Positions 20,955 to 46,651 of a stretch of DNA of 47,846 nucleotides are shown one piece after another. The stretch comes from Snodgrassella alvi. Its GTDB lineage: Bacteria > Pseudomonadota > Gammaproteobacteria > Burkholderiales > Neisseriaceae. The stretch is taken from NCBI RefSeq assembly GCF_002777425.1, contig NZ_MDVC01000003.1:1-47846 (forward strand). Direction: 5' to 3'. How positions within the stretch are numbered: the first letter of the stretch is position 1; each line of letters starts with the position of its first letter. Under the pieces are notes generated by a model. The model searched no databases. It was not told the DNA's origin and saw nothing but the letters and a program-made list of their open reading frames with translations. The translations under genes and the position numbers were made by a program.

Positions 20955-21030
20955 GCCAGTATAGCTCAGTTGGTAGAGCAGCGCACTCGTAACGCGAAGG
21001 TCACAGGTTCGATTCCTGCTACTGGCACCA
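20955..21030 (+). tRNA. tRNA-Thr (anticodon CGT)
   Basis: A 76-base cloverleaf can be drawn: acceptor GCCAGTA/TACTGGC, D arm GCTC...GAGC, anticodon loop CTCGTAA giving anticodon CGT, T arm ACAGG-TTCGATT-CCTGC... and an encoded ACCA end. The anticodon stem contains an A-C pair next to the loop and a G-A pair at its base; the latter is also usual in proteobacterial tRNA-Thr(CGT). The prophage integrase lies 118 bases downstream, so the 3' half is very likely the attachment site. Confidence 0.95.
20990..21030 (+). other. probable prophage attachment site (attL) in tRNA-Thr
   Basis: Integrase genes of this class sit beside the attachment core, commonly the anticodon-to-3' part of a tRNA. The tRNA is intact here and host genes lie to its left, so this is the left junction. 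The exact core cannot be fixed because the right junction is beyond the window. Confidence 0.5.
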
Positions 21031-22418: not shown

Positions 22419-22433
22419 CCGGCAGATTGCCGG
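22419..22433 (-). terminator. intergenic hairpin unit before the excisionase-like gene
   Basis: CCGGC-N5-GCCGG, followed on the minus strand by ATTTTTATT. Member of the early-operon hairpin series, with a different stem sequence from the main AGCCAGC type. Confidence 0.5.
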
Positions 22434-22452
22434 TGTGTGTTGTTACGTTTGC

Positions 22453-22704
22453 TTAGGGTTGTTTAGGTTGCTGTGTGTTATGCCAGTCGCAGGATAGGCC
22501 TGAGGCTTTGTCTTGGTTATTACTTTCGTAAAGCTGTTCGTTGTAAACAATGCAGGTGATTTTGCGCCCATCATGTAACACAATCTGTGTTTCTATAATA
22601 CGTTTACTAGCCCGTTCTGCTAATTTGGCGTTCCGCTCTTCTGCGAAATCACAACCGGCAATAAAAAAAGCCGCTATGCCATCTATAATCAATTTAGTTT
22701 TCAT
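22453..22704 (-). CDS. small prophage lipoprotein
   Basis: The 83-residue product starts MKTKLIIDGIAAFFIAGC, a lipoprotein-type signal with lipobox IAGC, though Asp at position 8 in the hydrophobic stretch is unusual. The mature part is charged at first (EERNAKLAERASKR) and then has VLHDGRKITCIVYNEQ. I do not recognise it. Lipoproteins in the early part of temperate phages often block superinfection or phage adsorption, which is only a possibility here. The start at 22704 is chosen because AGGACAGATAAC precedes it. Confidence 0.55.
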   Translation of the reverse strand: MKTKLIIDGIAAFFIAGCDFAEERNAKLAERASKRIIETQIVLHDGRKITCIVYNEQLYESNNQDKASGLSCDWHNTQQPKQP

Positions 22705-22730
22705 GTTATCTGTCCTGATAATCAAAATTA

Positions 22731-22751
22731 AAGCCAGCTTTGAGCCGGCTT
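22731..22751 (-). terminator. intergenic hairpin unit before the lipoprotein gene
   Basis: AAGCCGGC-N5-GCTGGCTT on the minus strand with one C-A mismatch, then TAATTTTGATT. The stem matches the AGCCAGC family. Confidence 0.55.
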
Positions 22752-22754
22752 GTG

Positions 22755-23393
22755 TTAGGACGGGTCAGGAATGCGTTTATCTATAGTAAATACATACACC
22801 CAAACCCACGGATTATCGTCCCATGAGCCTTGTCCATTAATTTCTTCCCATATTCTTTTATAGTTGGTTACGTATGATCCATCCTCAATAACTGCGCCCT
22901 CGGCTTTGGCATCCGCTTCGCTAATGTCATGTAACCTTTCAAGCCTAACAGCTATGAGGTTCAGGAATAACCTGCATATTTGCTTGGGCATATGTAGGTT
23001 TGGCCGCCACTTGTTGGCTGGGTTTCCGGCACATCTTGTCAATTGATAATAATCTATACTATCAATCATAGCTTTCACGGTTTGATTGCCACCTGCTTTA
23101 TACTCTACTTTATACTCTACGGTGTAATGGGTGTAATGGGTGTAATGGGTGTCATGAGTGTATGAAAGCAAGTCACCGCATTTAGTCACCTTGAATGATT
23201 CACGTACCCATAATTTATCTCCCGCCATGCCATGAGGTGGCGAGAAGTTGCCATTTGTTCCGGGAATGGTAAAAGCACCATCTTTTTTAAGATGCGCTGG
23301 TTTTAATAATCGGCGCGTTTGTGTTTTATCTCCATTCCGTAGTGCCGCGACCATTTCCGTGCAAAATAGAATAGGGCGTTCTTTTGGGGTCAT
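22755..23393 (-). CDS. ASCH/PUA-like phage protein
   Basis: A 212-residue protein with the start KERPILFCTEMVAALRNGDKTQTRRLLKP, the pattern of a large phage family related to ASCH (RNA-binding PUA-like) domains, in which P-I-L-F...M-V-x-A-x-L-x-G-x-K-T-Q-T-R-R is conserved. Further typical pieces are GDKLWVRESF and RLHDISEADAKAEG. Function is not established. Residues about 75-95 are a low-complexity run (THDTHYTHYTHYT, VEYKVEYK) made by short tandem DNA repeats. The start at 23393 follows TTGGAG by six bases. Confidence 0.75.
   Translation of the reverse strand: MTPKERPILFCTEMVAALRNGDKTQTRRLLKPAHLKKDGAFTIPGTNGNFSPPHGMAGDKLWVRESFKVTKCGDLLSYTHDTHYTHYTHYTVEYKVEYKAGGNQTVKAMIDSIDYYQLTRCAGNPANKWRPNLHMPKQICRLFLNLIAVRLERLHDISEADAKAEGAVIEDGSYVTNYKRIWEEINGQGSWDDNPWVWVYVFTIDKRIPDPS
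23097..23165. repeat. two adjacent in-frame tandem repeats
   Basis: TTTATACTCTAC occurs twice in tandem (23097-23120), directly followed by GGTGTAATG three times and the variants GGTGTCATG and AGTGTATG. Unit lengths of 12 and 9 keep the reading frame. Confidence 0.85.
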
Positions 23394-23415
23394 ATTAGTC
23401 TCCAAAATAATTAAA

Positions 23416-23432
23416 GCCAGCTGGTAGCTGAC
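23416..23432 (-). terminator. intergenic hairpin unit before the ASCH-like gene
   Basis: GTCAGC-TACCA-GCTGGC on the minus strand (one T-G pair), then TTTAATTATTTTGGAG, the last part being the Shine-Dalgarno of the next gene. A slightly decayed member of the series. Confidence 0.5.
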
Positions 23433-23435
23433 AAA

Positions 23436-23903
23436 TTAACCTTTTATAAAAGCAAACCAGTGCGTGCCGCCATGTCTTTTAGTCACATGACCAAACAATG
23501 GTTTATGCGGTGTGAGGGCTAAAATATCTTTAACCTTGATTTGGGTTTCATTCCATTTAAAGATTAAAGTGCCGTTTGGTTTTAAAACTCGGAAACATTC
23601 AGCAAAACCTTTCCGTAAGTCATCTCGCCAGTCTTGTCCTAGTTTTCCATACTTCTTAGCCAGCCACGATTTAGAACCGGCTTTGTTCAAATGTGGAGGG
23701 TCAAAAACAACAAGATGAAAAGCGTCGTCTAGGAATGGCAAATCCGTAAAATCAAGAAGAACATCTGGGTTAATATCTAACGCGCGACCATCGCATAAAA
23801 TATGGGATTCCTGACGTTTATCACCAAATAGGCAGCGTTCATCTTTCTTGTCAAACCACATCATGCGACTGCCGCAGCAGGGGTCTAGTACAGGGCTGTT
23901 CAT
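23436..23903 (-). CDS. SAM-dependent methyltransferase
   Basis: The 155-residue protein has a Rossmann-type methyltransferase core: motif I near the N-terminus (LDPCCGSRMMWFD), an acidic residue binding SAM ribose (CDGRALDINPDVLLDFTDLPF), and motif IV FDPPH, the (D/N/S)PP(Y/F/H) form seen in N6-adenine or N4-cytosine and some RNA methyltransferases. C-terminal FRVLKPNGTLIFKWNE follows. No partner restriction gene is near, so it is probably a solitary phage modification enzyme. The target is unknown. The start at 23903 follows TTGGAG. Confidence 0.8.
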   Translation of the reverse strand: MNSPVLDPCCGSRMMWFDKKDERCLFGDKRQESHILCDGRALDINPDVLLDFTDLPFLDDAFHLVVFDPPHLNKAGSKSWLAKKYGKLGQDWRDDLRKGFAECFRVLKPNGTLIFKWNETQIKVKDILALTPHKPLFGHVTKRHGGTHWFAFIKG

Positions 23904-23920
23904 GTTAAACTCCAAAATTA

Positions 23921-23941
23921 AAGCCAGCTAGTAGCTGGCTT
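23921..23941 (-). terminator. intergenic hairpin unit before the methyltransferase gene
   Basis: Perfect AAGCCAGC-N5-GCTGGCTT, then TAATTTTGGAG and the ATG 19 bases after the stem. The hairpin overlaps the stop codon of the upstream gene. Confidence 0.65.
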
Positions 23942-24359
23942 ATGGATTTACAAATACTTTTTTTAAATCATCTTCGGTTAATGTGATTTTTTCAACTAAT
24001 TTGCCAGACTCATAATAAGGAATTTTAATATGCTCATCTAAAACCTTATCAATCTTGTCTTGTAACGCTTTAACTTCGTCATCAGACAACGAATCAGCTA
24101 CTTCAGCCCCCTCAAACCCGTTATCCTCAAGCCTTTCATCTAATTCCAAAAGCAAATCGCCCACATCAATAAGACTAACACCACTAGGTGAGATTGGCAC
24201 TTGCTCATACGCGTGAACAGTTGTGAATACTCTTGACTTTACGAATTCGTCAGCAAACGATATAGCTTCTTCAATAGAATCATGTACTGTGTCGTTGTAG
24301 GCGTCACCGTTGTCATCGATAACCGCGTAACAAAGTTTTGTTTCTTTATTTGCTTCCAT
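23940..24359 (-). CDS. acidic phage protein of unknown function
   Basis: I do not recognise this 139-residue, strongly acidic protein. It starts with a compact section (KLCYAVIDDNGDAYNDTVHDSIEEAISFADEFVKS) that looks like a small alpha/beta domain and continues with acidic helical segments (LLLELDERLEDNGFEGAEVADSLSDDEVKALQDKIDKVLDEHI). The high negative charge would suit a DNA-mimic or inhibitor, but nothing specific supports this. The ATG at 24359 is taken as start because the longer read begins with TTG. It lies in the tightly packed early operon. Confidence 0.6.
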   Translation of the reverse strand: MEANKETKLCYAVIDDNGDAYNDTVHDSIEEAISFADEFVKSRVFTTVHAYEQVPISPSGVSLIDVGDLLLELDERLEDNGFEGAEVADSLSDDEVKALQDKIDKVLDEHIKIPYYESGKLVEKITLTEDDLKKVFVNP

Positions 24360-24380
24360 AATAAATTTTCCCAAAAATTA

Positions 24381-24400
24381 AAGCCGCATAAAAGCGGCTT
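24381..24400 (-). terminator. intergenic hairpin unit
   Basis: AAGCCGC-N6-GCGGCTT followed on the minus strand by TAATTTTTGGGA. Same layout as its neighbours, with the stem core changed on both arms together (GCCGC/GCGGC instead of GCCAGC/GCTGGC). Confidence 0.6.
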
Positions 24401-24413
24401 GTTGTTCAACTGG

Positions 24414-24737
24414 TCACCACTCCTCTAAATCAATTACAAGTACTTGATCTGTTCCGAGTTGTTCTACAACCTCCTTGGGATAATGGCAAGACACTTTAAC
24501 GCTATCGCCATTATCGTCGTTATATTCATAATCTGAACCAACATCTTTATATTTGCCATCATTTATATCTTCTACAACCATTTCTAGGGAATCGTTTCCG
24601 AATTCATTGCCGTTTTTTATGTTTTCGTTTATTAAATTTAAAAGATATACTTTTATACTCTCTATATCATAAGCTATGTAAATATTGGGCTCATCGCCAA
24701 TTTGGAAATATTTAATCTCTAAATTTTCATTACTCAT
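24414..24737 (-). CDS. acidic phage protein of unknown function
   Basis: The 107-residue product is acidic and rich in Asp/Asn, with a repeated aromatic pattern (KYFQIGDEPNIYIAYDIESIKVYLLNLI, DVGSDYEYNDDNGDSVKVSCHYPKEVVEQL). I do not recognise it. The start at 24737 (MSNENLEIK) follows GGAGAGTAACA; the longer frame to 24794 would reach past the hairpin and into the upstream gene and is not supported. Confidence 0.55.
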   Translation of the reverse strand: MSNENLEIKYFQIGDEPNIYIAYDIESIKVYLLNLINENIKNGNEFGNDSLEMVVEDINDGKYKDVGSDYEYNDDNGDSVKVSCHYPKEVVEQLGTDQVLVIDLEEW

Positions 24738-24756
24738 TGTTACTCTCCAAAATAAA

Positions 24757-24779
24757 ATAGCCAGTGTGGTGCTGGCTAT
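24757..24779 (-). terminator. intergenic hairpin unit
   Basis: ATAGCCAG-N7-CTGGCTAT, an eight-base perfect stem, then TTTATTTTGGAG on the minus strand. Confidence 0.65.
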
Positions 24780-24786
24780 AAGTTGT

Positions 24787-25383
24787 TTAATCAAATACCC
24801 ATTCGGGAATGGTTGGTTCCTTCAACGGCCAAAAGGGGGATATCCCTCCAATAAAATTGGGTGTCTGCTGAAAAAGCACTGTTACAGATGCCATTCCTCT
24901 TTGGATTAAAATAGGCGTATTATTAGAGTCAAGTATTTTGCCTACCTTACGGAATCTATTTAATAATTCGGGGTCAAAATTAGATGGTTTAATCTCCTTG
25001 CTACATTGGTCTTTAAACCATTTAGGTATATCTGGATAAATAGCCTGTATTTCGGGTTCTGACGCGCAAAACCCATCGCTTTTAATAGAAATTATGCCAT
25101 CTTCCTGTGTAATAATATAATGTACTTTGGGGTTAATTTTAGCCAAACATTCAATAGGGATTATGCAGCAATCATCTGGCTGAAATTGATTTTCTCCCCC
25201 AACTTGTTCTGGCAAATCAATTTTTAATGCACCAACAACCAAGTGATCAGTCGCCTCTATAATTACACTGTTTGTTTTGAAGCGCAGATTTACTGCATTT
25301 ACATAATACCTAATATCATCTTTAGCACTTAACAAAGATAATGCTCGTAAATACTTTCCGTTAATAAAGACTTGTTTTTTCAT
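24787..25383 (-). CDS. DNA sliding-clamp (beta subunit)-like phage protein
   Basis: The 198-residue protein has the pattern AKDDIRYYVNAVNLRF...IIEATDHLVVGALKIDLP...IIPIECL...YPDIPKWF...NFDPELLNRFRKVGK, which recalls phage proteins described as DnaN-like: a KDIRYYLNGV start, ATDGHRL, then IPRDLL and FNPEYL. Real beta clamps have three such domains and about 370 residues; this has room for about one and a half, so it may work as an oligomer or bind clamp partners. The family link is from memory of the motif order. It lies among recombination and SSB genes, consistent with a replication role. Confidence 0.65.
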   Translation of the reverse strand: MKKQVFINGKYLRALSLLSAKDDIRYYVNAVNLRFKTNSVIIEATDHLVVGALKIDLPEQVGGENQFQPDDCCIIPIECLAKINPKVHYIITQEDGIISIKSDGFCASEPEIQAIYPDIPKWFKDQCSKEIKPSNFDPELLNRFRKVGKILDSNNTPILIQRGMASVTVLFQQTPNFIGGISPFWPLKEPTIPEWVFD

Positions 25384-25400
25384 TATTCAACTCCAAAATA

Positions 25401-25423
25401 ATAGCCAGCACTAGGCTGGCTAT
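25401..25423 (-). terminator. intergenic hairpin unit before the clamp-like gene
   Basis: ATAGCCAGC-N5-GCTGGCTAT, nine-base perfect stem and five-base loop, then TATTTTGGAG on the minus strand. The best-preserved member. Confidence 0.7.
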
Positions 25424-25452
25424 AGTCGTTAAGTTATGGTTGGTATTTAGGG

Positions 25453-26028
25453 TTATTTATTGTCGGATGATTTCACTACTTCAACTTTACCAAAGATGCC
25501 CCCAAAAGCACTGATATTAGTTTTCTCAGCATAAACATCCCCAAGGATATATCCATCAGCATATATAGTAAGCTCTCTGGTTCTAACATCTCCATGGATG
25601 GAACCACTATCATCGATGGCAATGTTATCAGCTTCGACACCTCCACTAATGTTTCCGTCATTAGTAATAACAACGATCTTTGAGTTGACATTCCCAAGGA
25701 TGAACCGTCTACCTTTAACGATAAGCTTACCATCAACCGATAATGTGCCGTTAACAATAATATTGCCAGTAAGCATGCATTCTTTTTTGATATGCACGTC
25801 ACCGGGATAATAGATATCCCCGCCTTTATATTCTTCTATTACTAAAGGTTCCATTTTAGACGGGAGTTCATCTAGTAACCACATGGCAAAGGCGAAATAG
25901 CCCAATTCTTCCCATTTTTTCAGTACCTTTAAAGCGTCAGCTTCACCAGATGGAAAACGCCGGTTGAACTCATTAATGTAGTCATGTCCGAAGTTATTTG
26001 CTTCTAACCATTCGCTTGTAATAATCAT
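25453..26028 (-). CDS. bactofilin-like beta-helix protein with helical N-terminal domain
   Basis: Residues 1-50 (EANNFGHDYINEFNRRFPSGEADALKVLKKWEELGYFAFAMWLLDELP) look helical and resemble an N-terminal module of several phage-encoded proteins. From about residue 65 the protein is a series of short turns (GDIYYPGDVHIKKECMLTGNIIVNGTLSVDGKLIVKG..., GNISGGVEADNIAIDDSGSIHGDVRTRELTIYADGYILGDVYAEKTNISAFGGIFGKV) matching the right-handed beta-helix of bactofilins. Bactofilins polymerise; why a phage should encode one is unclear. The start at 26028 follows AAGGACAATACC. 191 residues. Confidence 0.6.
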   Translation of the reverse strand: MIITSEWLEANNFGHDYINEFNRRFPSGEADALKVLKKWEELGYFAFAMWLLDELPSKMEPLVIEEYKGGDIYYPGDVHIKKECMLTGNIIVNGTLSVDGKLIVKGRRFILGNVNSKIVVITNDGNISGGVEADNIAIDDSGSIHGDVRTRELTIYADGYILGDVYAEKTNISAFGGIFGKVEVVKSSDNK

Positions 26029-26058
26029 GGTATTGTCCTTAGTATCTCGTAATAAAAA

Positions 26059-26077
26059 AGCCAGCATTTAGCTGGCT
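26059..26077 (-). terminator. intergenic hairpin unit before the bactofilin-like gene
   Basis: AGCCAGC-N5-GCTGGCT on the minus strand, then TTTTTTATTACG. Here the distance from the hairpin to the start codon is longer (about 30 bases). Confidence 0.65.
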
Positions 26078-26078
26078 G

Positions 26079-26134
26079 TGTCTACTCATCCACGAAAATG
26101 CACTCATTGAATGCATTTAAATTGATAAGCTTTA
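26079..26134 (-). repeat. conserved 3' element, copy A (also at 31809-31862)
   Basis: About 50 bases immediately after the stop of the 72-residue repeat protein match those after the stop of the 147-residue paralogue, with only a few differences. The core AAATGCA...TGCATTT can form a seven-base stem. Each copy is followed by a hairpin unit of the early-operon series. Confidence 0.8.
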
Positions 26135-26350
26135 TCCATAAATGTGTATGTCTACTGGTTCCCACTCATCTTCATTCATGCATGAGATTAACCCATCATA
26201 TGTACCCCCAGCGTCGGCCTTGGCTTCACCCTGTAAAACAATAGTAGCACGCGTCTCTTTCCAAAAGATAACAACCGACCCGTCACACTTTCTTTTTCTA
26301 CCTACAGGGAATTTAATTCCAGATGCATCGGGCTTCTTAACTTCAAGCAT
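26132..26350 (-). CDS. single-repeat member of the YPV(G/A)R repeat family
   Basis: The 72-residue protein is one copy of a repeat found twice each in two proteins about 5.7 kb upstream in the same operon: IKFPVGRKRKCDGSVVIFW...ATIVLQGEA...W-E-P-V-D-I-H-I-Y-G. The N-terminus (MLEVKKPDASG) matches the start of the others (ML(K/E)(I/V)...P). I do not know this family. The pattern of short beta-strand-like stretches suggests a small beta domain. An AAGGAG Shine-Dalgarno precedes the ATG. Confidence 0.7.
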   Translation of the reverse strand: MLEVKKPDASGIKFPVGRKRKCDGSVVIFWKETRATIVLQGEAKADAGGTYDGLISCMNEDEWEPVDIHIYG

Positions 26351-26396
26351 GATTAACTCCTTTCAATTTGCGTTGTTTGTAAGAGATAAAATAAAA

Positions 26397-26412
26397 CCCG
26401 CTGGTTGGCGGG
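26397..26412 (-). terminator. intergenic hairpin unit before the 72-residue gene
   Basis: CCCGC-N6-GCGGG, then TTTTATTTTATC on the minus strand. It resembles an intrinsic terminator and lies 47 bases before the start codon. Confidence 0.6.
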
Positions 26413-26428
26413 CTGGGTTATTGATATT

Positions 26429-26698
26429 TTAATTCTCATCAATTCTAGATATTGAGAACAACGGTCGCCACTCAACTTCAATGTAAAAAGTAGCAATATC
26501 TTTATCATTATGAGTAATGGTTATTTTAATAGGAGAATCATCGCTCCATCCGCCATCATGATTATAGTGATAATCCGCAGCCATCACTTTCGCAAGGAGG
26601 CTCAAGCTATCCGGATTGTTCAAATCATATTCATAATATGGTTCAATTTTATACAGGTTATCACGTTCACCATCTACAAAATATCTATAAGTAGCCAT
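26429..26698 (-). CDS. small phage protein of unknown function
   Basis: This 89-residue protein (MATYRYFVDGERDNLYKIEPYYEYDLNNPDSLSLLAKVMAADYHYNHDGGWSDD...) is rich in Tyr and acidic residues and contains a His-containing YHYNHDGGW motif. I do not recognise it. The start is placed at 26698 because AGGAG lies eight bases before it. The Shine-Dalgarno overlaps the ssb stop (TAG), so it is coupled to ssb. Confidence 0.6.
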   Translation of the reverse strand: MATYRYFVDGERDNLYKIEPYYEYDLNNPDSLSLLAKVMAADYHYNHDGGWSDDSPIKITITHNDKDIATFYIEVEWRPLFSISRIDEN

Positions 26699-26709
26699 AA
26701 TCATCTCTC

Positions 26710-27180
26710 CTAGAATGGAATGGAATCATCAATATCATCTACAGGTGCCGGTGTGGGTGCTGGCCGTGGTGCCTGACGCCGTGGCGCGGCTGGTGGTGGG
26801 TTGGAAGCAGTAGGTGCGGCATCATAACTGCCGCCTGAATTAGAGGCGTTATTGCTATCGCCCAGCATTTTCATTTCATTCCCAATGATATCGTAAGCGA
26901 TGCGTTCGATACCGTCCTTTCCGCTGTATTTACGGCTTTGAATGCGACCCTCAATAAATACCTGACTACCCTTATGCAAATACTGGCCGGCTATTTCCCC
27001 CAGTTTCCCAAATAGGGTAATATTGTGCCATTCGGTACGGGTTTGAGGCTGTCCAGATTTATCTTTCCATCTTTCTTCTGTAGCAATAGAAAAATTGGTT
27101 ACTGCTTCGCCGCTGGGCATATATCGAGCTTCAGGGTCACGACCCAAACGGCCAACCAGGATTACTTTATTTACAGACAT
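26710..27180 (-). CDS. ssb: single-stranded DNA-binding protein
   Basis: A 156-residue SSB. The OB-fold start [90 protein letters not shown] is nearly canonical, followed by a flexible Pro/Ala-rich linker and the acidic tip DDIDDSIPF that recruits partner proteins. As in many lambdoid phages it sits beside the recombination genes and probably works with RecT and the exonuclease. AAAGGATGATCC precedes the start. Confidence 0.97.
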
Positions 27181-27191
27181 GGATCATCCTT

Positions 27192-27830
27192 TCATGCAAC
27201 CTGTTTTATCAGGCTTTCATAATAGTCCTGACAAATTTCAACCTTTTCTTTAATCTTCTCAATTGCCTTTTCATCCCTTTCTACCGTTACAGTAGTAACC
27301 CGTTTAAGCAACGGAATATCCTCGACCGCATCAACCAGCACTTCCGTGCGGTCGTAAGTGCCCAATAAGTTTTCAGGGCAGGGGAATAGCCAAAAATCAA
27401 TATCGGCCTTATCGCAATCATAAAGCCACATATAGCCCTGCATCTGATGAATATATCCGGCCTTTTGAGCTTTCTTTTGAGCCTCATCGACAAACTGCGG
27501 GTGTGTAAAAACATCCCATGAACATTTTGTATCAATAATTAGTCGTTCGCTTGGCACATAAATATCGCATTCACCTGTAATCCAGTCATTTTCCAAACGG
27601 GTAGTATTTTTAGTAAATACCCGCCCGCGCTTCATTCCGCTTGCCTTTATAGCTATATCTTCCAATTGCTTGCCTTTAGCCGTTTCCTTATCACCGGCGA
27701 ATCTCTGAACGCCGTACAGGTTTTCTTTTGCCAAGGTCATCAAGTACGATTTAGCCGTATCAGAAAGGGGATTGCCTTTAGTTCGACCATCCCCGATTAT
27801 CAGTGATATTGCTGAGCATCTTATTTTCAC
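27192..27830 (-). CDS. PD-(D/E)XK phage exonuclease (lambda-exonuclease/YqaJ-like)
   Basis: A 212-residue protein with the nuclease core LENDWITGECDIYVPSERLIIDTKCSWDVFTHPQ: the Glu/Asp before the strand, then D-T-K form the PD-(D/E)XK metal site, followed by a tyrosine-rich QMQGYMWLYD helix as in viral recombinase exonucleases. It would chew dsDNA to give the 3' ssDNA used by RecT. The start is GTG at 27830, one base after the recT stop, with GAGGGA as Shine-Dalgarno; co-translation with recT is likely. Confidence 0.85.
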   Translation of the reverse strand: MKIRCSAISLIIGDGRTKGNPLSDTAKSYLMTLAKENLYGVQRFAGDKETAKGKQLEDIAIKASGMKRGRVFTKNTTRLENDWITGECDIYVPSERLIIDTKCSWDVFTHPQFVDEAQKKAQKAGYIHQMQGYMWLYDCDKADIDFWLFPCPENLLGTYDRTEVLVDAVEDIPLLKRVTTVTVERDEKAIEKIKEKVEICQDYYESLIKQVA

Positions 27831-27831
27831 T

Positions 27832-28716
27832 TCAAAGTCCCTCGATTACTTCCCGTTGCTCGGGTGTAAATTTGTAATCCCCGTTTAATACCGCTTCTTT
27901 ACTTACCTCTCCTGTAGTAATATTTTCTACAAGCGTTTGCATCAACTCATCATCAACTGTCACGGATAAATCCAGAGATGTATTTTGATTGTCTATATAA
28001 TCAAACTTATCCTCAGTCACGTCCTTAATGACTGATTGGTCTGATAAAACGGCCTTTTGCAGCTCAATAGACAAGGGAGCATATTTAGATAACAACAATT
28101 TAGTTACTGTTTTCAAGGCCATCTGCTCATAATTATCAGCCCATACACCATAACCCTTTTTAAATGACTGGCTGTAGCGTTTAGCATGCTCATCAATTTG
28201 ACTTGTTGTCATATAAAGCTCAGCAGTAAAGTCATTAATTAACTTGAAATAAGCATAAAAGCCGATAGGTTTTTCATTTTCATCAGGCTCAACCTCCCAG
28301 TCAAACTTGAAGCCATTAATTAAATCTTTCTCAGCTAATTGAGCTTTATAAACCGGCAATGAAACAAGGCGCCTAAACTGCCCTGAACGCTGAGCCAACT
28401 GTATTAGCCCTTTGTAGCCAAGCTGAAATTGCGCATCAACTCGCCCTGTTTTTTTATTATGGTAGGGGACGATATAGGCAAAGCCGAAGCTGTTATTAAT
28501 TGGCAGGTTTAAAGTTGCCGCCATGCACGCTGCATTAAAAATAGATAATGGGTCAGCATTCAGAAGCATTTCATTATTGTTCACAATCTGCATGATTGAG
28601 GTTGCAAAGCTGGCGGCATTTTTATTAACCAGCTCATGCATTTTTTTCTGAATGGCTGGGTTGTTTAAAAAGGATTTAATATCTTTTGCCTTTTGGATTG
28701 CGTTGGTGTTACTCAT
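27832..28716 (-). CDS. recT: RecT-family ssDNA annealing recombinase
   Basis: RecT anneals complementary single strands in phage recombination. The 294-residue protein has the typical middle: DPLSIFNAACMAATLNLPINNSFGFAYIVPYHNKKTGRVDAQFQLGYKGLIQLAQRSGQF, which includes the conserved Q-x-G-Y-K-G segment, and an acidic C-terminal tail. The start is put at 28716 because TTGGAG lies seven bases before it and the longer read begins with TTG. It is coupled to the following exonuclease gene; SSB follows. Together they form a complete annealing module. Confidence 0.95.
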   Translation of the reverse strand: MSNTNAIQKAKDIKSFLNNPAIQKKMHELVNKNAASFATSIMQIVNNNEMLLNADPLSIFNAACMAATLNLPINNSFGFAYIVPYHNKKTGRVDAQFQLGYKGLIQLAQRSGQFRRLVSLPVYKAQLAEKDLINGFKFDWEVEPDENEKPIGFYAYFKLINDFTAELYMTTSQIDEHAKRYSQSFKKGYGVWADNYEQMALKTVTKLLLSKYAPLSIELQKAVLSDQSVIKDVTEDKFDYIDNQNTSLDLSVTVDDELMQTLVENITTGEVSKEAVLNGDYKFTPEQREVIEGL

Positions 28717-28736
28717 TTTCAAACTCCAATAAAAAA

Positions 28737-28753
28737 GCCAGCATTAGGCTGGC
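28737..28753 (-). terminator. intergenic hairpin unit before recT
   Basis: GCCAGC-N5-GCTGGC, then TTTTTTATTGGAG on the minus strand. This looks like a true intrinsic terminator. Confidence 0.7.
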
Positions 28754-28783
28754 ATGTTTTTTGCTTATTAGGCTTATTCAAGA

Positions 28784-29134
28784 TTAATAAATGTGATCAT
28801 CAAGGGCGCAGCCGTTTGCAAGTGCAACAGCGAACGAGGCAAGATTGTCTCTTGCGCATTCGACTATGTTAGGATCGTTTGATTGCATTTGTTCTTGGGC
28901 TTGCCATATTAATTGACGAATTGTTACAGGGTTATCTGGATCATATCCGCAAGGCTGGATAATCATATCTATATATTGCTTAGCGTCTTTGATTGTTGAG
29001 CAAGTTGTAGAATGCGCCGAACAAGTTGCCGAACTTGGGACTTTTACTTTAAATCCTGGATTTGCTCTTGTAACCACAATGCCGCTTTTTTCATGAATCC
29101 ATTTACAGCTCTGCAATTGTTTTAATTTTGCCAT
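28784..29134 (-). CDS. phage protein of unknown function
   Basis: The 116-residue product starts with a basic strand-rich part (MAKLKQLQSCKWIHEKSGIVVTRANPGFKVKVPSSATCSAHSTTCSTIKDAKQYIDMI) and ends in a helical part with six cysteines overall. I do not recognise it. The first half has the shape of an AP2/integrase-N-like or small DNA-binding domain, but no motif decides this. The start at 29134 is chosen because AAGGA stands eight bases before it. Confidence 0.55.
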   Translation of the reverse strand: MAKLKQLQSCKWIHEKSGIVVTRANPGFKVKVPSSATCSAHSTTCSTIKDAKQYIDMIIQPCGYDPDNPVTIRQLIWQAQEQMQSNDPNIVECARDNLASFAVALANGCALDDHIY

Positions 29135-29162
29135 CTTATACATCCTTATTTTTCAATAAACA

Positions 29163-29177
29163 CCAGCTAATGACTGG
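29163..29177 (-). terminator. weak intergenic hairpin unit
   Basis: CCAG-N7-CTGG overlapping the stop of the zinc protein, followed by TGTTTATTG. Weaker than the others. Confidence 0.35.
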
Positions 29178-29574
29178 CCGGAAATTCTTTTTTTAAAAAT
29201 TCAATAGCTTTTCGGCATCTATCAATGCTAAACAAGCTAATATGGCATTTTCTATAGCGTATGCCTAAATGCTTTGCCAGCTTCCTGTAAACATCTCTTC
29301 GCCCCATCTGTTTAGATTGCCAGATAGGGTCTAGTACGGAATGCGCAGCTTGTCGCCACATTCTTAACTCAGCATTAGCAAGACTGCCTAACGGTAATGT
29401 GCCATCACTTTTCCCAATTCTTGGAATGTTTGCGCCTTTTTTATGGCAGCCTACATACGCATCACAGGGAGCACACAGCCAAAAGTTAAGCGCGTATAAA
29501 TCTGGCCGGTGAGGGTAAATTCTTTCTCCAGTAACCAGCTCCGCATCATTGCCGCAGTATGTGCATTTAACCAT
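29167..29574 (-). CDS. zinc-finger phage protein, DUF3268-like
   Basis: A 135-residue protein starting MVKCTYCGNDAELVTGERIYPHRPDLYALNFWLCAPCDAYVGCHKKGA, with paired CxxC motifs (CTYC and CAPC) that form a zinc ribbon, followed by GTLPLGSLANAELRMWRQAAHSVLDPIW and a helical C-terminus. This matches the DUF3268 family of phage proteins of unknown function. The upstream frame to 29712 is open by chance and overlaps another gene; the start at 29574 fits the domain start. Confidence 0.75.
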   Translation of the reverse strand: MVKCTYCGNDAELVTGERIYPHRPDLYALNFWLCAPCDAYVGCHKKGANIPRIGKSDGTLPLGSLANAELRMWRQAAHSVLDPIWQSKQMGRRDVYRKLAKHLGIRYRKCHISLFSIDRCRKAIEFLKKEFPASH

Positions 29575-29607
29575 TTCAATTCCGATAATTTGTTTTGAAT
29601 AACGACC

Positions 29608-29624
29608 GCTTACGGCGGTCAGTC
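29608..29624. repeat. hairpin GACCGC...GCGGTC upstream of the zinc protein
   Basis: GACCGC-N5-GCGGTC, a perfect six-base inverted repeat 34 bases before the start. It is not of the AGCCAGC type. Confidence 0.5.
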
Positions 29625-29654
29625 GGCACACACGAAAGCAAAGGAGGACTAACC

Positions 29655-29729
29655 ATGTGCTGCGCGCTGTTATTAATCCCGCCACCTGCGCGCTGGGCGG
29701 GTCAGAACACACCTACACCAAAAAACTGA
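29655..29729 (+). CDS. possible micro-ORF on the opposite strand
   Basis: A 24-residue frame (MCCALLLIPPPARWAGQNTP...) begins with ATG after a near-consensus Shine-Dalgarno AAGGAGGACTAACC on the plus strand, against the direction of the early operon. It has a locally higher G+C content than its surroundings. Whether it is translated is unknown; it may be a regulatory peptide or simply a relic. Confidence 0.3.
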   Translation: MCCALLLIPPPARWAGQNTPTPKN

Positions 29730-29911
29730 TTACTCCACGCGTAAGCTGCATCCCATCCATCCAATGTTTTTTCTGCGATAACTTTTTTGACAGATTTGCA
29801 TTTACCGCGGCCTAAGTTATTTGCTCGGTTACTTTTTTCTTTCTTCATGACTGTACGGAAGACAACAACATGAATACCTGCTTTTACAGGCTTGTAAGTT
29901 ACATTATTCAT
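29702..29911 (-). CDS. small basic phage protein of unknown function
   Basis: The 69-residue protein is strongly basic in its middle (RTVMKKEKSNRANNLGRGKCKSVKKVIAEK) and ends with aromatic residues (GWDAAYAWSNQFFGVGVF). Such size and charge suggest nucleic-acid binding, but no fold is recognised. AAGGATATACAA before the ATG is a good Shine-Dalgarno. Confidence 0.55.
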   Translation of the reverse strand: MNNVTYKPVKAGIHVVVFRTVMKKEKSNRANNLGRGKCKSVKKVIAEKTLDGWDAAYAWSNQFFGVGVF

Positions 29912-29941
29912 TTGTATATCCTTGAACTAGATACTAGCTGT

Positions 29942-30289
29942 TTAATTATTTAAATTTCTATCGATCCGGATCATACTTTTATATAATCTATCAAGTATGC
30001 CCTCAACACTGTCCCCAGCAACAAAGTTCAATGAACTGAAAGAAAGATGTGGAGAAATCGATTTAAGGGCTGAAAAGCTATCTCTGCTTGATTTTAATAA
30101 ATCAAGCAAAAAGCTGAGGTTTTCCTTGACATGATCGCCGTACAACAATTCAAAAGGTTTTGTATTAGGTATTATTTTGGTGAATACCTGCTTGTTATAA
30201 ATAATCCCTACGCCTATATTTAATAGCTCGCCAGTAGCTAAATCAGGCGAAAGCCTAATTACAAACCATCTTGCAGAAGTGTCCGACAT
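29942..30289 (-). CDS. DUF3037-like protein
   Basis: The 115-residue protein starts MSDTSARWFVIRLSPDLATGELLNIGVGIIYNKQVF, which fits the start of DUF3037 proteins (Y-x-V-x-R-x-x-P-D...G-E-x-x-N-V-G-V). DUF3037 genes are known beside HipA-like kinase genes in bacteria, but no kinase is seen here; the adjacent genes are DUF1828-like. The start at 30289 is supported by GGAGG six bases upstream and by a one-base overlap with the upstream stop (TGATG). The longer frame to 30376 is not needed. Confidence 0.6.
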   Translation of the reverse strand: MSDTSARWFVIRLSPDLATGELLNIGVGIIYNKQVFTKIIPNTKPFELLYGDHVKENLSFLLDLLKSSRDSFSALKSISPHLSFSSLNFVAGDSVEGILDRLYKSMIRIDRNLNN

Positions 30290-30681
30290 CAATCCCTCCG
30301 ACCCCGAATGTAATAGTAAAATACCATCATATTTTTCAATTGTCTTGCTTCGTGAATCGCTATTAACAACGCCCATCTCTTGCTACTTGATGCTATGATT
30401 TCCCCACTGGAAGTTATTCGGGCATAGTTATAATTGGCATATGCAAAACGATTTAACTTATCAATTACTTTTTCTGGCATATTCCATCCACGGTGAGACA
30501 AGGTCATTGCGACGTAATTGTCATCCGTTAATTCGAACTCCTCATCATTAACAGTAAGAAAAAGACAAAAGTTTTCACCATCCACAATCTCGTATGGAGA
30601 AAAAAGCAGAATTCGACCGTCATCGCGGCGTTCAATCTCCCAAGAGTCTTCTTTTAATGTTAATTCTTCATTCTTAGTCAT
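30289..30681 (-). CDS. DUF1828-like protein, copy 2
   Basis: A 130-residue protein paralogous to its upstream neighbour. Shared pattern: SPYEIVDGENFCLFLTVNDEEFELTDD, then YARITSSGEIIA, then a helix with A-R-Q-L-K-N-M. The segment D-G-x-x-x-x-L-F-L-...-L-T-D-D is the hallmark of DUF1828. Function is not known. AGGAGGTGTTAAG gives a perfect Shine-Dalgarno. Its stop overlaps the next start, so the two are made together. Confidence 0.65.
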   Translation of the reverse strand: MTKNEELTLKEDSWEIERRDDGRILLFSPYEIVDGENFCLFLTVNDEEFELTDDNYVAMTLSHRGWNMPEKVIDKLNRFAYANYNYARITSSGEIIASSSKRWALLIAIHEARQLKNMMVFYYYIRGRRD

Positions 30682-30692
30682 CTTAACACCTC

Positions 30693-31079
30693 CTAATTAG
30701 GGCACCTAAATACCATAGCGAGTGCCAACTTTGCTGCGTCCTCGACGGCTTTGTGCAATAGATTTAAATCCCTGTGCTCTGCTATGATTTCGCCGCAGGC
30801 TTCAACATGTGCGTATTTAATGCCGTGCGTATTATTTAATTCATGTATTAATTCTTCTGTTAGGTCTAATTCTCTATCAGCGACGTAATTGGCAGCTCGA
30901 CCATCGTCCGTCAACTTAAAAGATAATTCGTCTCTACTGTGAATATACAAAAAAAGCCGTTCCCCATAGCCAAGTTCAAATGGGGCGAGGATTGCCGCGT
31001 TCTTGTCATTAAGCTTCAAAACAGCCCAGCTGGGAAGGGTTGATACCACGTCTACAAATTTAGTCATATACATATACAT
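30693..31079 (-). CDS. DUF1828-like protein, copy 1
   Basis: The 128-residue protein has the DUF1828 pattern: APFELGYGERLFLYIHSRDELSFKLTDDGRAANYV, then KYAHVEACGEIIAEHRDLNLLHKAVEDAAKLALAM. It aligns end to end with the next gene, so the pair arose by tandem duplication and diverged strongly. The Met at 31079 has GAGAGG nine bases upstream and is preferred over the ATG at 31136, which lies inside the upstream gene. Confidence 0.65.
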   Translation of the reverse strand: MYMYMTKFVDVVSTLPSWAVLKLNDKNAAILAPFELGYGERLFLYIHSRDELSFKLTDDGRAANYVADRELDLTEELIHELNNTHGIKYAHVEACGEIIAEHRDLNLLHKAVEDAAKLALAMVFRCPN

Positions 31080-31092
31080 TTTTTCTGACCTC

Positions 31093-31329
31093 TCAATATA
31101 AAGCCTCAGCATCACCGCGTAGCCGTTCTGCATCACTCATTCGCGCATACGCATCAGCTATCCGTTTAACTTCTAAATCTGCTAACCGCTCTTTTTGTTG
31201 CATTTGTTTGGCGACGTATTCGCGCTGCATCTGTAGCTGCTCTGTCTCAGTAGGTACAGGTAATATCATCATTGAAGCAGTCATAAAAAAAACTGCAATA
31301 AATGCAGTTATCTGTAGTTTAATCACCAT
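31093..31329 (-). CDS. small single-pass membrane protein with a coiled coil
   Basis: The 78-residue protein has an N-terminal transmembrane helix or uncleaved signal (KLQITAFIAVFFMTASMMILPV) and a charged helical remainder (TETEQLQMQREYVAKQMQQKERLADLEVKRIADAYARMSDAERLRGDAEALY) with heptad-like spacing. The layout resembles small phage accessory proteins anchored in the inner membrane. Function unknown. AGGGAGATAG precedes the ATG. Confidence 0.55.
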   Translation of the reverse strand: MVIKLQITAFIAVFFMTASMMILPVPTETEQLQMQREYVAKQMQQKERLADLEVKRIADAYARMSDAERLRGDAEALY

Positions 31330-31416
31330 CTATCTCCCTAAAATAGTTATCTTTTACTTTCTAACTTGAATGTATTCATCAGTGGTCCTTTACTCCAATA
31401 AAGGTAATGTTCGTGG

Positions 31417-31770
31417 CTAGGGCAATCTTACATATGTGTCATACATTTCATCCCATACCTTACGCATATTGTCTACTTCATAAGGTTCTAATGGTTTATT
31501 GCTATTATTGAATTGGATGGCAGCAAAAGAAGTATCGTATGCTTGCTCAACATCAATATAACTATTAGTCTCATTACTCAAATACATAGCTTCATAAATC
31601 GCTAACCAAACTTCCCAAAGGAATTGAACTTCCTCGTTATCGTATTTCTCTTCATTAAAATAACGAGCACTGAAGGGATAACTCATATAAATGTCTGGCG
31701 TGCGAGATATCCAATTTTCAAAAAAACTTCTCTGGATATCAATTTGCTCCTTGGTTAGATTGGGTTGCAT
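31417..31770 (-). CDS. acidic phage protein of unknown function
   Basis: This 117-residue protein is acidic and rich in aromatic residues (SFFENWISRTPDIYMSYPFSARYFNEEKYDNEEVQFLWEVWLAIYEAMYL). A W-E-V-W-L-A-I-Y-E-A-M type helix occurs in several phage proteins of this size. The start at 31770 follows TTGGAG by six bases; the longer read would use TTG. Confidence 0.55.
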   Translation of the reverse strand: MQPNLTKEQIDIQRSFFENWISRTPDIYMSYPFSARYFNEEKYDNEEVQFLWEVWLAIYEAMYLSNETNSYIDVEQAYDTSFAAIQFNNSNKPLEPYEVDNMRKVWDEMYDTYVRLP

Positions 31771-31786
31771 TTCAATCTCCAATAAA

Positions 31787-31809
31787 AACGCCAGCTAATA
31801 GCCGGCGTT
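31787..31809 (-). terminator. intergenic hairpin unit
   Basis: AACGCCGGC-N5-GCTGGCGTT with one mismatch on the minus strand, then TTTATTGGAG. Confidence 0.6.
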
Positions 31810-31862
31810 GTCTACTCATCCACGCAAATGCACTCATCGAATGCATTTGAATTGATAAGTTA
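31809..31862 (-). repeat. conserved 3' element, copy B (also at 26079-26134)
   Basis: TGTCTACTCATCCACG, AAATGCACTCAT, GAATGCATTT and AATTGATAAG are shared in order with copy A, differing at single bases between them. It starts where the 147-residue gene ends and runs into the hairpin unit. Confidence 0.8.
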
Positions 31863-32303
31863 TCCACAAATTTTTAGATTAACCGCCGTCCATACACTGC
31901 TTGTTTCACATAAGTGATACTTCTCCCCAATTTCCCTATCCATATGTTCGCTATTTCCCGGATCAGCTATTACCCCAACATTAGGCTCAGTAAGGATAAC
32001 AATCATGTTGTTTTTATTATTTCGCATAGCTACTGGATATATAACTTCATCCCCTGTAACCGTGTTACCCTCTATGGATATTTGCCCTGCTGATATTTTT
32101 ATATCTACCGGCTTCCAATCACTAATTAACACATGGAATGCCGAATCTCCTGTTATATAGCCAAGAGGGGTATTGGACGTCCCTTTACAAACAACCGTAC
32201 ATTTACACTCACCCCAGAAAATAGCAACCACATCATCATAACTCCGTCTTCTACCTACTGGATATTTAATTTCCGGTATATTCCGTTCAGTAATTTTAAG
32301 CAT
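31860..32303 (-). CDS. two-repeat member of the YPV(G/A)R repeat family
   Basis: The 147-residue protein contains two copies of the repeat: IKYPVGRRRSYDDVVAIFW...VVCKG...W-K-P-V-D-I-K-I-S (about 12-72) and VIYPVAMRNNKNNMIVIL...VGVIADPG...W-T-A-V-N-L-K-I-C-G (about 85-147). The second copy has lost the F-W and the basic run. The protein begins MLKITERNIPE like its relatives. Unknown function. It lies 23 bases after the related upstream gene. Confidence 0.7.
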   Translation of the reverse strand: MLKITERNIPEIKYPVGRRRSYDDVVAIFWGECKCTVVCKGTSNTPLGYITGDSAFHVLISDWKPVDIKISAGQISIEGNTVTGDEVIYPVAMRNNKNNMIVILTEPNVGVIADPGNSEHMDREIGEKYHLCETSSVWTAVNLKICG

Positions 32304-32326
32304 GATTAATCATAACCTTTAATAGA

Positions 32327-32806
32327 TTACCCATAAATTTTTAAATTGACCGGTTCCCACTCAGAATCCGTAGACTTCATAGCCTCATCCCAATAATCCC
32401 TAGCGCAAGAACCCACATACGTATCCTTATTAGGTTTTCCTCTTCTACCCACATTGGCTACTACTCCAGCTTTATAAGCAGTATAGATAACAAGCAATCC
32501 ATCGTATTTCCGTCTTCTAGCTACTGGGTATATAATTTCTTCTTTAACAATTTTACCGCCATCAAAAATAATACATCCCTCTGATATTTCGAAATCCACG
32601 GGTAGCCACTTAACGTAATTATCACAAGGTATGAGAAAAGCTGTACGCCCGACAAGCCCGCTAGCACTATTACCGCATAGGATTGCACCCTGAAACCTAT
32701 TCCAAAAAATAGCAACCGTAGTTTCTTCGTCCTCATCATCAGGTTTCCATTGTCTACCTACTGGATATTTAATTTCGGGTTCTGCTTTTTCAGTAACTTC
32801 AATCAT
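32327..32806 (-). CDS. two-repeat member of the YPV(G/A)R repeat family
   Basis: The 159-residue protein has the repeat twice: IKYPVGRQWKPDDEDEETTVAIFW...AILCGNS...W-L-P-V-D-F-E-I-S-E-G and IIYPVARRRKYDGLLVIY...VVANVGRRG...W-E-P-V-N-L-K-I-Y-G. Both copies keep the Y-P-V and the W-x-P-V-(D/N) ends. Pairwise likeness to the other two proteins is clear by eye, but they are well diverged. Second gene of the early leftward operon; function unknown. Confidence 0.7.
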   Translation of the reverse strand: MIEVTEKAEPEIKYPVGRQWKPDDEDEETTVAIFWNRFQGAILCGNSASGLVGRTAFLIPCDNYVKWLPVDFEISEGCIIFDGGKIVKEEIIYPVARRRKYDGLLVIYTAYKAGVVANVGRRGKPNKDTYVGSCARDYWDEAMKSTDSEWEPVNLKIYG

Positions 32807-32818
32807 GATTAAATACTT

Positions 32819-33175
32819 TCAATTTGCGTTCTCTTTAATATACTCAGTAACCATTTTTTCAGCCTCTAGTGGTAGATGGCTTAATATCTGGCCTACTGTC
32901 TGCTGTCTGTAATGGCCGCCTAAATAAATTGCCTTAACCAGCTCATTTGCTACCTTTTGTATATCCTCATAGAATTTTGAGCTATACAGTTCCCCGATAG
33001 CGTCATCAGCAACCTGTATCAACTCATCATCAGCTAGCTGTTCTTCTGTTTCTGCATTCTTTTCTGCGAGTAGGTCGCTTGCTGCCCATGCAGCATCTTC
33101 ACGCGCCATAAAATCCAAATATCCGTGAGGTTCTGGGTTGGTGATGTTTGTATTTAATGAAGCAGCATATTTCAT
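32819..33175 (-). CDS. first gene of the leftward operon, unknown function
   Basis: The 118-residue protein is acidic and almost wholly helical (REDAAWAASDLLAEKNAETEEQLADDELIQVADDAIGELYSSKFYEDIQKVANELVKAIYL...QTVGQILSHLPLEAEKMVTEYIKENAN). I do not recognise it. As the first product from the left promoter, ahead of many attenuator-like hairpins, it is where a lambda N-type antiterminator would sit; it lacks the arginine-rich motif of N proteins, so that role is not supported. TAAAGGAG precedes the start. Confidence 0.6.
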   Translation of the reverse strand: MKYAASLNTNITNPEPHGYLDFMAREDAAWAASDLLAEKNAETEEQLADDELIQVADDAIGELYSSKFYEDIQKVANELVKAIYLGGHYRQQTVGQILSHLPLEAEKMVTEYIKENAN

Positions 33176-33214
33176 TTTTTACTCCTTTAGCTTTATTTAA
33201 ATTCAAAAACTAAA

Positions 33215-33234
33215 GCCCACTCGTTAGAATGGGC
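33215..33234 (-). terminator. first hairpin unit, in the operon leader
   Basis: GCCCATTC-TAAC-GAGTGGGC, an eight-base stem with one G-T pair, then TTTAGTTTTTG on the minus strand, 40 bases before the first start codon. Confidence 0.65.
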
Positions 33235-33284
33235 TGCGATTTTTAAACTCGTTTCATACTTGTCTCAGATTTTTCGGCAGCTTA

Positions 33285-33295: not shown

Positions 33296-33422
33296 ATGAA
33301 CAATCCATTGTCGCTATCAACTTATAGCAGCGTGGCAACCTAGCCTGTCTTTCCTTTTGCTGCGTTTCCCCAGTTCTTTTTCATACTGAGGTCATCGGTG
33401 TCTGTGTTTGTTCAATGGGTGT

Positions 33423-33451
33423 ATATTACTAGCGGTAATTAAATATATCAA
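33423..33451 (-). promoter_or_regulatory. left early promoter (PL-like)
   Basis: TTGATA (33446-33451), a 17-base spacer and TAATAT (33423-33428) face leftward. Two repressor operators overlap it, one at the -35 side and one at the -10 side. Confidence 0.7.
33426..33438. promoter_or_regulatory. left operator 1
   Basis: TTACTAGCGGTAA, matching the consensus TTACC-N3-GGTAA of the five operators. Confidence 0.65.
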
Positions 33452-38703: not shown

Positions 38704-38730
38704 AACCCGCCCACCTCAGGCGGGTTTTTT
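38704..38730 (+). terminator. leader terminator of the late operon (tR'-like)
   Basis: AACCCGCC-N7-GGCGGGTT then a run of six T in all (38725-38730), about 90 bases after the late transcription start. A TTGGAG Shine-Dalgarno follows it directly. Confidence 0.8.
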
Positions 38731-46604: not shown

Positions 46605-46626
46605 CTGACAATTGTTTTTTATACGA

Positions 46627-46651
46627 GCCACGGTTATCCGTGGCTTTTTTT
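46627..46651 (+). terminator. terminator-like hairpin before the tail tube gene
   Basis: GCCACGG-TTAT-CCGTGGC and seven T, then ATGGAG as Shine-Dalgarno region. Same layout as the early-operon hairpin units, on the other strand. Confidence 0.7.

Follow-up and report, generated by a model that had tools for sequence, protein, structure and literature searches.

Within the 47,846-nt stretch of Snodgrassella alvi contig NZ_MDVC01000003.1 that was analysed here (the window; assembly GCF_002777425.1), a leftward early operon combines two features: a series of short elements, termed terminator-RBS units, in which a terminator-like hairpin stands before the ribosome-binding site (RBS) of the next gene, and a leader RNA, termed R1, at the start of the operon. 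The window is a prophage in a Snodgrassella-type genome, the host type being assigned from relatives. Relatives of its RecT were found at 76-96% identity in named Snodgrassella records, and an IMG/VR contig (L001) matches the window at 100%. The operon comprises 24 called genes, that is 23 gene pairs. Besides those listed in Table 1, its products include a RusA-like/clamp-like family match, a DNA methyltransferase and the products of many small genes without known function. The product of the first gene gave one Pfam hit below the cut-off, in searches that included none aimed at an N protein.

Table 1. Positions of the features discussed, counted from the first letter of the window
Feature	Position	Strand	Remark
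Predicted left early promoter, TTGATA-17-TAATAT	33423..33451	-	consensus match only
Leader RNA R1, about 110 nt	33308..33418	-	begins close to predicted +1
boxA-like site TGTTCTTTAAA	33285..33295	-	host ribosomal RNA (rRNA) leader: CGCTCTTTAACAG
Predicted leader terminator t1	33214..33235	-	before first gene
Terminator-RBS unit	31787..31809	-	
Weak, degenerate unit	29162..29178	-	outside the 11 counted
Terminator-RBS unit	28737..28753	-	before recT
recT-like gene	27832..28707	-	
Exonuclease-like gene	27192..27830	-	after recT
SSB-like gene	26710..27180	-	after exonuclease
Terminator-RBS unit	26395..26414	-	44 nt upstream of start codon
Terminator-RBS unit	26059..26077	-	
Terminator-RBS unit	25401..25423	-	
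Terminator-RBS unit	24757..24779	-	
Terminator-RBS unit	24381..24400	-	
Terminator-RBS unit	23921..23941	-	
Terminator-RBS unit	23416..23432	-	
Terminator-RBS unit	22731..22751	-	
Terminator-RBS unit	22419..22433	-	
Unit of the same kind	38704..38726	+	rightward region
Unit of the same kind	46626..46645	+	rightward region

Terminator-RBS units

Each unit runs from a GC-rich hairpin through a T-rich tail and a Shine-Dalgarno (SD) sequence to a start codon. The rule applied required a stem of at least 5 bp with at least 4 GC pairs, a loop of 3-8 nt, at most one G-U pair and at least 5 T in the 8 nt just downstream. By this rule units were found in 11 of the 15 operon gaps of at least 20 nt, against a summed expectation of 0.045 from shuffled sequence, and in 10 of these 11 gaps the hairpin ended within 40 nt of the start. 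A twelfth hairpin (33235-33214) stands before the first gene. Four gaps of at least 20 nt had no unit by the rule, one of them with a weak hairpin, and the eight shorter gaps among the 23 gene pairs were left unscored. A scan restricted to Watson-Crick pairs recovered a unit in 6 gaps rather than 11: G-U pairs occur in three stems, and another two gaps disappeared along with a gene that the two-strand caller missed. Later counts allow one G-U pair and rely on single-strand gene calling. In the 20-38 kb region, both strands summed, 39 terminator-like sites were counted as compared with 15.0 ± 4.0 in shuffles. The units have the GC-rich hairpin and immediate U-tract of an intrinsic terminator, though several U-tracts are interrupted. 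With hairpin energies from -6.5 to -14.8 kcal/mol, they would be weak to moderate terminators by a rough energy and T measure.

A first-pass annotation of this DNA had listed twelve hairpins and a weak thirteenth, all of which were recovered at their minus-strand positions, and a comparison of the gaps with shuffled controls, which it had proposed, gave the excess described above. Its statement that the hairpins precede nearly every gene was too strong in view of the short gaps and the four without unit. Loops of mostly five bases hold when only the core AGCCAGC/GCTGGCT is read; in fully extended stems they span 3-7 and are of five in 3 of 12. TTGGAG does follow 6 of the 12 hairpins, with other SD-like forms behind the rest (by eye). 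The series lies in the leftward operon as described, but this kind of unit is not confined there, as the plus-strand cases show.

Some repetition was also seen around the units. The small genes at 32327-32806, 31860-32303 and 26132-26350 (minus strand) have similar start regions by eye. After both 31860-32303 and 26132-26350 follows a near-identical stretch ending in GTGGATGAGTAGACA and then a unit, so that these look like duplicated gene-plus-spacer modules. The sequence TTTATTGGAG occurs without hairpin at 31402-31393 (minus strand), where it precedes only a ten-codon frame and is maybe the remnant of a lost gene.

Other phages carry such units as well. With a simple gene caller, a unit was found in the following fractions of gaps of 20-300 nt: lambda 6/24, HK97 5/15, HK620 1/11, T1 16/39, the P2-like PHL101 5/16, the first 50 kb of D3 5/29 and 340 kb of the host 12/163. 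The hairpin lay within 40 nt of the start in 6/24, 3/15, 1/11, 10/39, 2/16, 4/29 and 4/163, respectively, versus 10/15 in the window operon. The terminator-RBS unit is a known kind of element, and its density in this early operon is extreme among the phages compared. The earlier view that the arrangement is not known from standard lambdoid phages therefore holds for density alone, as lambda, HK97 and T1 share the order of hairpin, T-tract, SD and start codon in a lower fraction of gaps. T1 units end in TTTTTTATTGGAG or TTTTATTGGAG ahead of the start, and the T1 record annotates rho-independent terminators abutting RBSs; putative terminators shortly upstream of genes are annotated in HK97. Four of the six lambda units and two of the five HK97 units are located in the structural region. 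Lambdoid early genes are, as here, preceded by terminators (passages of PMC9378689). The SAS/ESAS repeats of cluster K mycobacteriophages likewise stand shortly before gene starts, in operons of non-structural genes, and roughly half of them contain inverted repeats; passages of PMC3203893 give little support for RNA pairing of their arms, while in the window the hairpin is kept across stem changes and is followed by a U-tract. Even when up to 2 mismatches were allowed, the window held no copy of the 13-bp SAS GGGATAGGAGCCC (PMC3203893). None of the matches listed in a literature search described a series of this kind in the early operon of a phage.

Hairpins were also scored without any rule on the tail in 85 distinct gaps of 20-150 nt from nine Snodgrassella-type operons, each followed as far as 12.5 kb downstream of its leader. 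A hairpin of at least 6 bp was present in 51 gaps, against 1.5 in shuffles, and a T-rich stretch stood downstream of 47 of them and on the other side of 18. In host gaps the same scan found a hairpin in 18 of 118 (shuffles 2.8), five of which had a T-rich stretch. Upstream of recT, a hairpin was observed in 7 of 24 non-redundant loci, all of Snodgrassella type (L001-L007), and in none of the 17 others. Its stem reads GCCAGC/GCTGGC in L001, identical to the window, versus GCCCATTA/TAATGGGC in L005. As already proposed in the first-pass annotation, the hairpin is kept while its sequence changes. Among 47 distinct units, 21 distinct hexamers were found at the end of the 3' arm, many being shifted forms of the GCTGGCT core, and TTGGAG was present in 21.

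The placement of these 47 units, at a median of 16 nt past the stop codon and 21 nt ahead of the start, would suit hairpins that act post-transcriptionally, by protecting the upstream 3' end, defining the next 5' end or insulating the ribosome site. A stabiliser, however, requires no U-tract, and 47 of the 51 hairpins have one downstream. Part of that excess could come from a U-rich translation enhancer: the T fraction before the SD was 0.61 in units and 0.33 at other starts, in a set selected for T-rich tails and biased to that extent. Altogether a post-transcriptional role seems unlikely. Still less probable is a translation-coupled polarity, in which ribosomes at the upstream stop would cover the hairpin so that termination occurs only if the upstream gene is untranslated and antitermination is unneeded. 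At some places in the window, such as 23941 and 23432, the stop codon does abut or run into the hairpin, but stop-to-hairpin distances are broad around their median and reach 54 nt at 26077, and the conserved leader RNA described below is left unexplained.

The units could also be recombination linkers or remnants of gene cassettes, accessory genes having each brought a terminator and an RBS, with repeats that aid exchange. Near-identical units do precede open reading frames of different length in relatives. The idea keeps some appeal because a gene and a unit are inserted before recT relative to locus L002: the window has a 116-codon gene and a unit between the gene at 29167-29574 and recT, where L002 has the gene end, one unit and recT (by eye). 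In seven Snodgrassella-type operons, 63 of 236 homology ends, which are not independent, fell in unit gaps compared with 23.3 expected. Yet plain gene boundaries were favoured too (46 versus 23.0), so that units are not singled out, and the same place can be filled by stems of wholly different sequence, which is poor for homologous exchange. The linker function considered in the first-pass annotation is thus weakly supported, and we hold it to be improbable.

Leader RNAs R1, R2 and R3

R1 is, by comparison of its relatives, a conserved folded RNA that begins near the predicted transcription start. In an alignment of fourteen sequences (13 distinct; 116 columns), RNAalifold placed 15 pairs in three helices, H1 (CCTCAGT/ACTGGGG), H2 (GCAGC/GCTGC) and H3 (GGC/GCC), and 9 of these pairs had two-sided compensatory changes, compared with 2.3 ± 1.0 in shuffles. 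Paired cells amounted to 98.5% versus 88.7 ± 1.2, and the covariation score to 0.291 versus 0.112 ± 0.019. None of 500 shuffles was as high in any of these measures or in compensatory cells, while further pair types (13 versus 8.8 ± 1.0) were reached by 2 of 500; the shuffles ignore kinship, and the structure was taken from the same alignment on which it is scored. When slid along the alignment, the structure paired 26.5-47.6% of cells. The leader stretch 33410-33262 folded with z = -2.39, 2 of 200 shuffles being equally good.

Three further features were rejected. For a short peptide encoded within R1 (ATG near 33382) the frame is not preserved, L153 reading ATG AAA TAG with a stop at the third codon. 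An outer 5' helix CATCG/CGATG, with 78.5% of cells paired, no compensatory changes and 150 of 500 shuffles as good, was excluded. Base pairing between the H1 loop and the boxA-like stretch, noticed by eye in L006, does not hold in L153 and L154 and was dropped.

The R1 stretch was found by DNA search in 8 of 83 family genomes, and an exact 33-base R1 pattern in 11 viral contigs. Among 40 chosen sources (the window and related-phage loci other than L003, L004 and L007), R1 was strong only in the window, L005 and L006. The R1 model found no copy in lambda, HK97, HK620, T1, D3 or HK022, and R1 or R2 DNA had no match at E 0.01 in 50,697 records of named phages. Rfam gave R1 sub-threshold hits only, none above the gathering score. 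A second R1 leader (L174) was observed in the same genome on another contig (G000 C6:16789-16898), with a different promoter and 3 units in 4 gaps.

Promoters vary between relatives, with R1 retained behind them. In 15 leaders set against each other without gaps on an R1 motif, mean pairwise identity was 37-53% up to 10 nt before that motif and rose to 89-96% in the 20 nt that follow, the motif itself serving as anchor. The best -10 hexamer ends 21 nt ahead of the same motif in 11 of the 15 leaders, and the script picked another hexamer in the other four. Behind R1, a boxA-like site is good by eye in the window, L003, L004, L173 and L174; three examined of the six rRNA leaders of the same genome contain CGCTCTTTAACAG. 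In a comparison with lambda nut/N, the boxA-like site alone was found after R1.

A leader terminator, that is a hairpin with a T-rich tail, was found by script behind R1 in 13 of 15 leaders, 41-92 nt past the last conserved R1 motif. Its stems vary on both arms (AGCCCATTC/GAGTGGGCT, AGCGCATTT/AAGTGCGCT and AAGCCAATTC/GAGTTGGCTT among others). The script found none in L177 and L178, the latter having one with more than one G-U pair by eye. This arrangement would yield a discrete RNA, and conserved unpaired stretches of R1 could be contact sites. The main rival to the antitermination proposed below is a regulatory or immunity RNA, for which the immunity RNAs of phages P4 and P1 are a model: transcripts would mostly end at t1, and an RNA of about 200 nt would act in trans or as an attenuator, the downstream units being ordinary leaky terminators. 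By this account the serial terminators remain unexplained, of which recT, exonuclease and SSB have three and a weak one ahead of them and the last gene has twelve. In addition, no convincing complement of the conserved loops was seen by eye elsewhere in the leader, where no systematic search was made. Such an RNA is rather unlikely, in our estimate.

One relative, L002, has many units without R1. Its RecT is 96% identical, the same value as for the named Snodgrassella communis locus L097, and R1 was found neither in the rest of the L002 record nor in the S. communis genome. In L002, the slot of R1 is occupied by a different RNA, R2. R2 was present in 6 of 83 family genomes, one as a 26-nt partial match. 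By a 15-base motif, R2 and the related R3 make up a subset of 56 viral stretches, the remainder looking like chance matches; their loci are L201-L209, a subset of L214-L265, L002, L009 and L010. In an alignment of both (A3), 100% of cells were paired in an 18-pair structure, and none of 500 shuffles matched the covariation score. Pairs with two-sided changes (5 versus 4.2 ± 0.8; equalled or exceeded in 202 of 500 shuffles) and further pair types (in 401 of 500) did not stand out, because the changes separate only two clades. Rfam had no hits on L201, L252 and L241, which hold R2/R3, and R2/R3 looks like an unclassified structured RNA. A leader terminator followed R2/R3 in 9 of the 23 loci given, duplicates included.

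The same promoters were found before different leaders. TTAGTTTTCTATACT precedes R1 (L173, L174), R2 (L214, L226) and R3 (L238, L262), and CGCTAGTAATAT precedes R1 (window, L003), R2 (L218) and R3 (L252). Varying promoters with a constant RNA, and one promoter before different leaders, are what would be expected of an RNA module acting from its own 5' end. Behind R1, units were present in 46 of 78 gaps of 20-400 nt (16 loci given; L006 was dropped as identical to L175, and in five loci the script closed the operon too soon to yield any gap). Behind R2 they were present in 43 of 79 gaps (23 R2/R3 loci, of which L243, L009, L010 and L207 were dropped as copies of L002, L252, L238 and L223).

A third kind of operon start was found by pattern search among loci L011-L073 (Pasteurellaceae-type or other), 30 of 63 having a GAGAT/ATCTC hairpin and then a GCTCTTTAA-like boxA. 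Fifteen non-redundant operons of this kind had units in 48 of 112 gaps, with 1.15 expected. Pasteurellaceae-type hosts were deduced from named relatives, Haemophilus aegyptius (L102) among them. Leaders of rRNA operons are named with boxB, boxA and boxC (PMC10250234). The Pasteurellaceae-type relatives have the hairpin and then the rRNA-like boxA at the operon start, an order that resembles rRNA leaders; here, however, the leader drives a phage operon, and R1 and R2/R3 are structured differently. The Pasteurellaceae-type early operons L013-L062 possibly use the host rRNA antitermination complex.

Proposed bypass of serial terminators by a marked polymerase

On balance, we favour with somewhat more than even confidence that the units are intrinsic terminators bypassed by RNA polymerase that R1 has marked. 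What we infer is that transcription ends at the hairpins, that R1 acts as an antiterminator and that the series exists for this purpose. The operon would be read by polymerase that transcribed R1 right after initiating at the left promoter; nascent R1 would mark it, either unaided or together with host Nus factors acting at the boxA-like site, and the marked polymerase would pass t1 and the serial terminators. Unmarked polymerases, from chromosomal read-through or spurious starts in the lysogen, would tend to stop within about one gene. The U-tract of a unit runs directly into the SD of the next gene, and one short element would therefore stop stray transcription and start translation of that gene. 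Leaky terminators that act unless antitermination works were among the roles proposed in the first-pass annotation and are the best supported of them, with 47 of 51 hairpins T-rich downstream, changing stems, and a conserved leader RNA with leader terminator; overall, its interpretation is partly supported.

As in the put, EAR and canT kind of antitermination RNA, a structured RNA was found at the operon start with predicted terminators downstream. The units are read as a firewall and R1 as a mark because the pLS20 conjugation operon and canT work that way. In pLS20, with more than 20 terminators and the element conAn, only polymerases marked at the main promoter read through and unmarked ones halt at the first terminator (passages of PMC8955417). 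The canT element of Tn916 works similarly (PMC11658703, in part). The sole antitermination factors described as consisting of RNA alone are put and EAR, canT being likely a further one (parts of PMC8955417, PMC9378689, PMC11658703). Internal intrinsic terminators with an antitermination element at the operon start, proposed to act against spurious transcripts (excerpts of PMC8955417, PMC11658703), are common to these systems and the window. They differ in that conAn and canT belong to Gram-positive conjugative elements, conAn needing a protein too, while in the window the operon is an early one of a phage and its terminators are joined to RBSs. Closer in setting are putL/putR of HK022, where put, just downstream of PL, is like R1 a structured RNA of serial stem-loops behind the left early promoter of a temperate phage (PMC9378689, in part). 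Put is blocked by polymerase mutations in the beta' zinc-binding domain (PMC9378689, in part). Put is about 70 nt and R1 about 110 nt long, the activity of R1 is predicted, and a boxA-like site follows R1 in some leaders.

Several observations weigh against this reading. By its covariance model R1 has a narrow range, with copies in 8 of the 83 genomes of the family and in 2 of its 12 genera. Within the class only 1 of 369 genomes, its own, had it, in a scan that may miss distant copies because 10 first-look candidates per genome were scored. HK022 gave no match to the R1 model up to E=10, with default filters and in one direction only. The boxA-like site is degenerate in L005-L007 and none was seen after R1 of L180 (by eye). 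Units occur without R1 in lambda, T1 and HK97 and in the right part of the window (plus strand, 2 of 4 gaps; left part 0 of 14), and the R1 operon L177 has none in 3 gaps. R3 operons have few units (4 of 18 gaps), and the sums given for each leader combine operons that are related and count some copies of the leader terminator, about six of the 43 behind R2. Finally, several U-tracts are broken (TAATTTT), and with T-scores of 1.9-4.8 (a rough home-made score) some hairpins may hardly terminate.

A wider proposal, in which our confidence falls a little short of even, is that R1 and R2/R3, which look unrelated, form two new put-like RNA families that directly convert polymerase in Neisseriaceae prophages and can be swapped as modules placed between promoter and operon, that in Pasteurellaceae-type relatives a boxB-boxA leader of rRNA type has been captured, and that all serve operons where many gaps hold a terminator-RBS unit as a firewall to unmarked polymerases. 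No antitermination in Snodgrassella phages was found among the matches listed in a literature search, and the honey-bee prophage paper PMC10259446 has neither the word 'terminator' nor 'antitermination'. With its strong covariation and a dozen predicted terminators behind it, R1 lends itself to testing, and comparison of two leader families in one slot could show what polymerase recognises. A search route for antitermination elements also follows: operons with serial terminator-RBS units can be collected and their first 150 nt inspected.

Cargo and end of the operon

The early operon encodes a bactofilin-domain protein at 25453-26028 (minus strand; Pfam PF04519, E 6e-12), an odd phage cargo. 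Near the operon end, Rfam matched a transfer RNA (tRNA) at 20955-21027 (plus strand), close also to a 329-codon frame at 21149-22138, and this tRNA is a possible attachment site.

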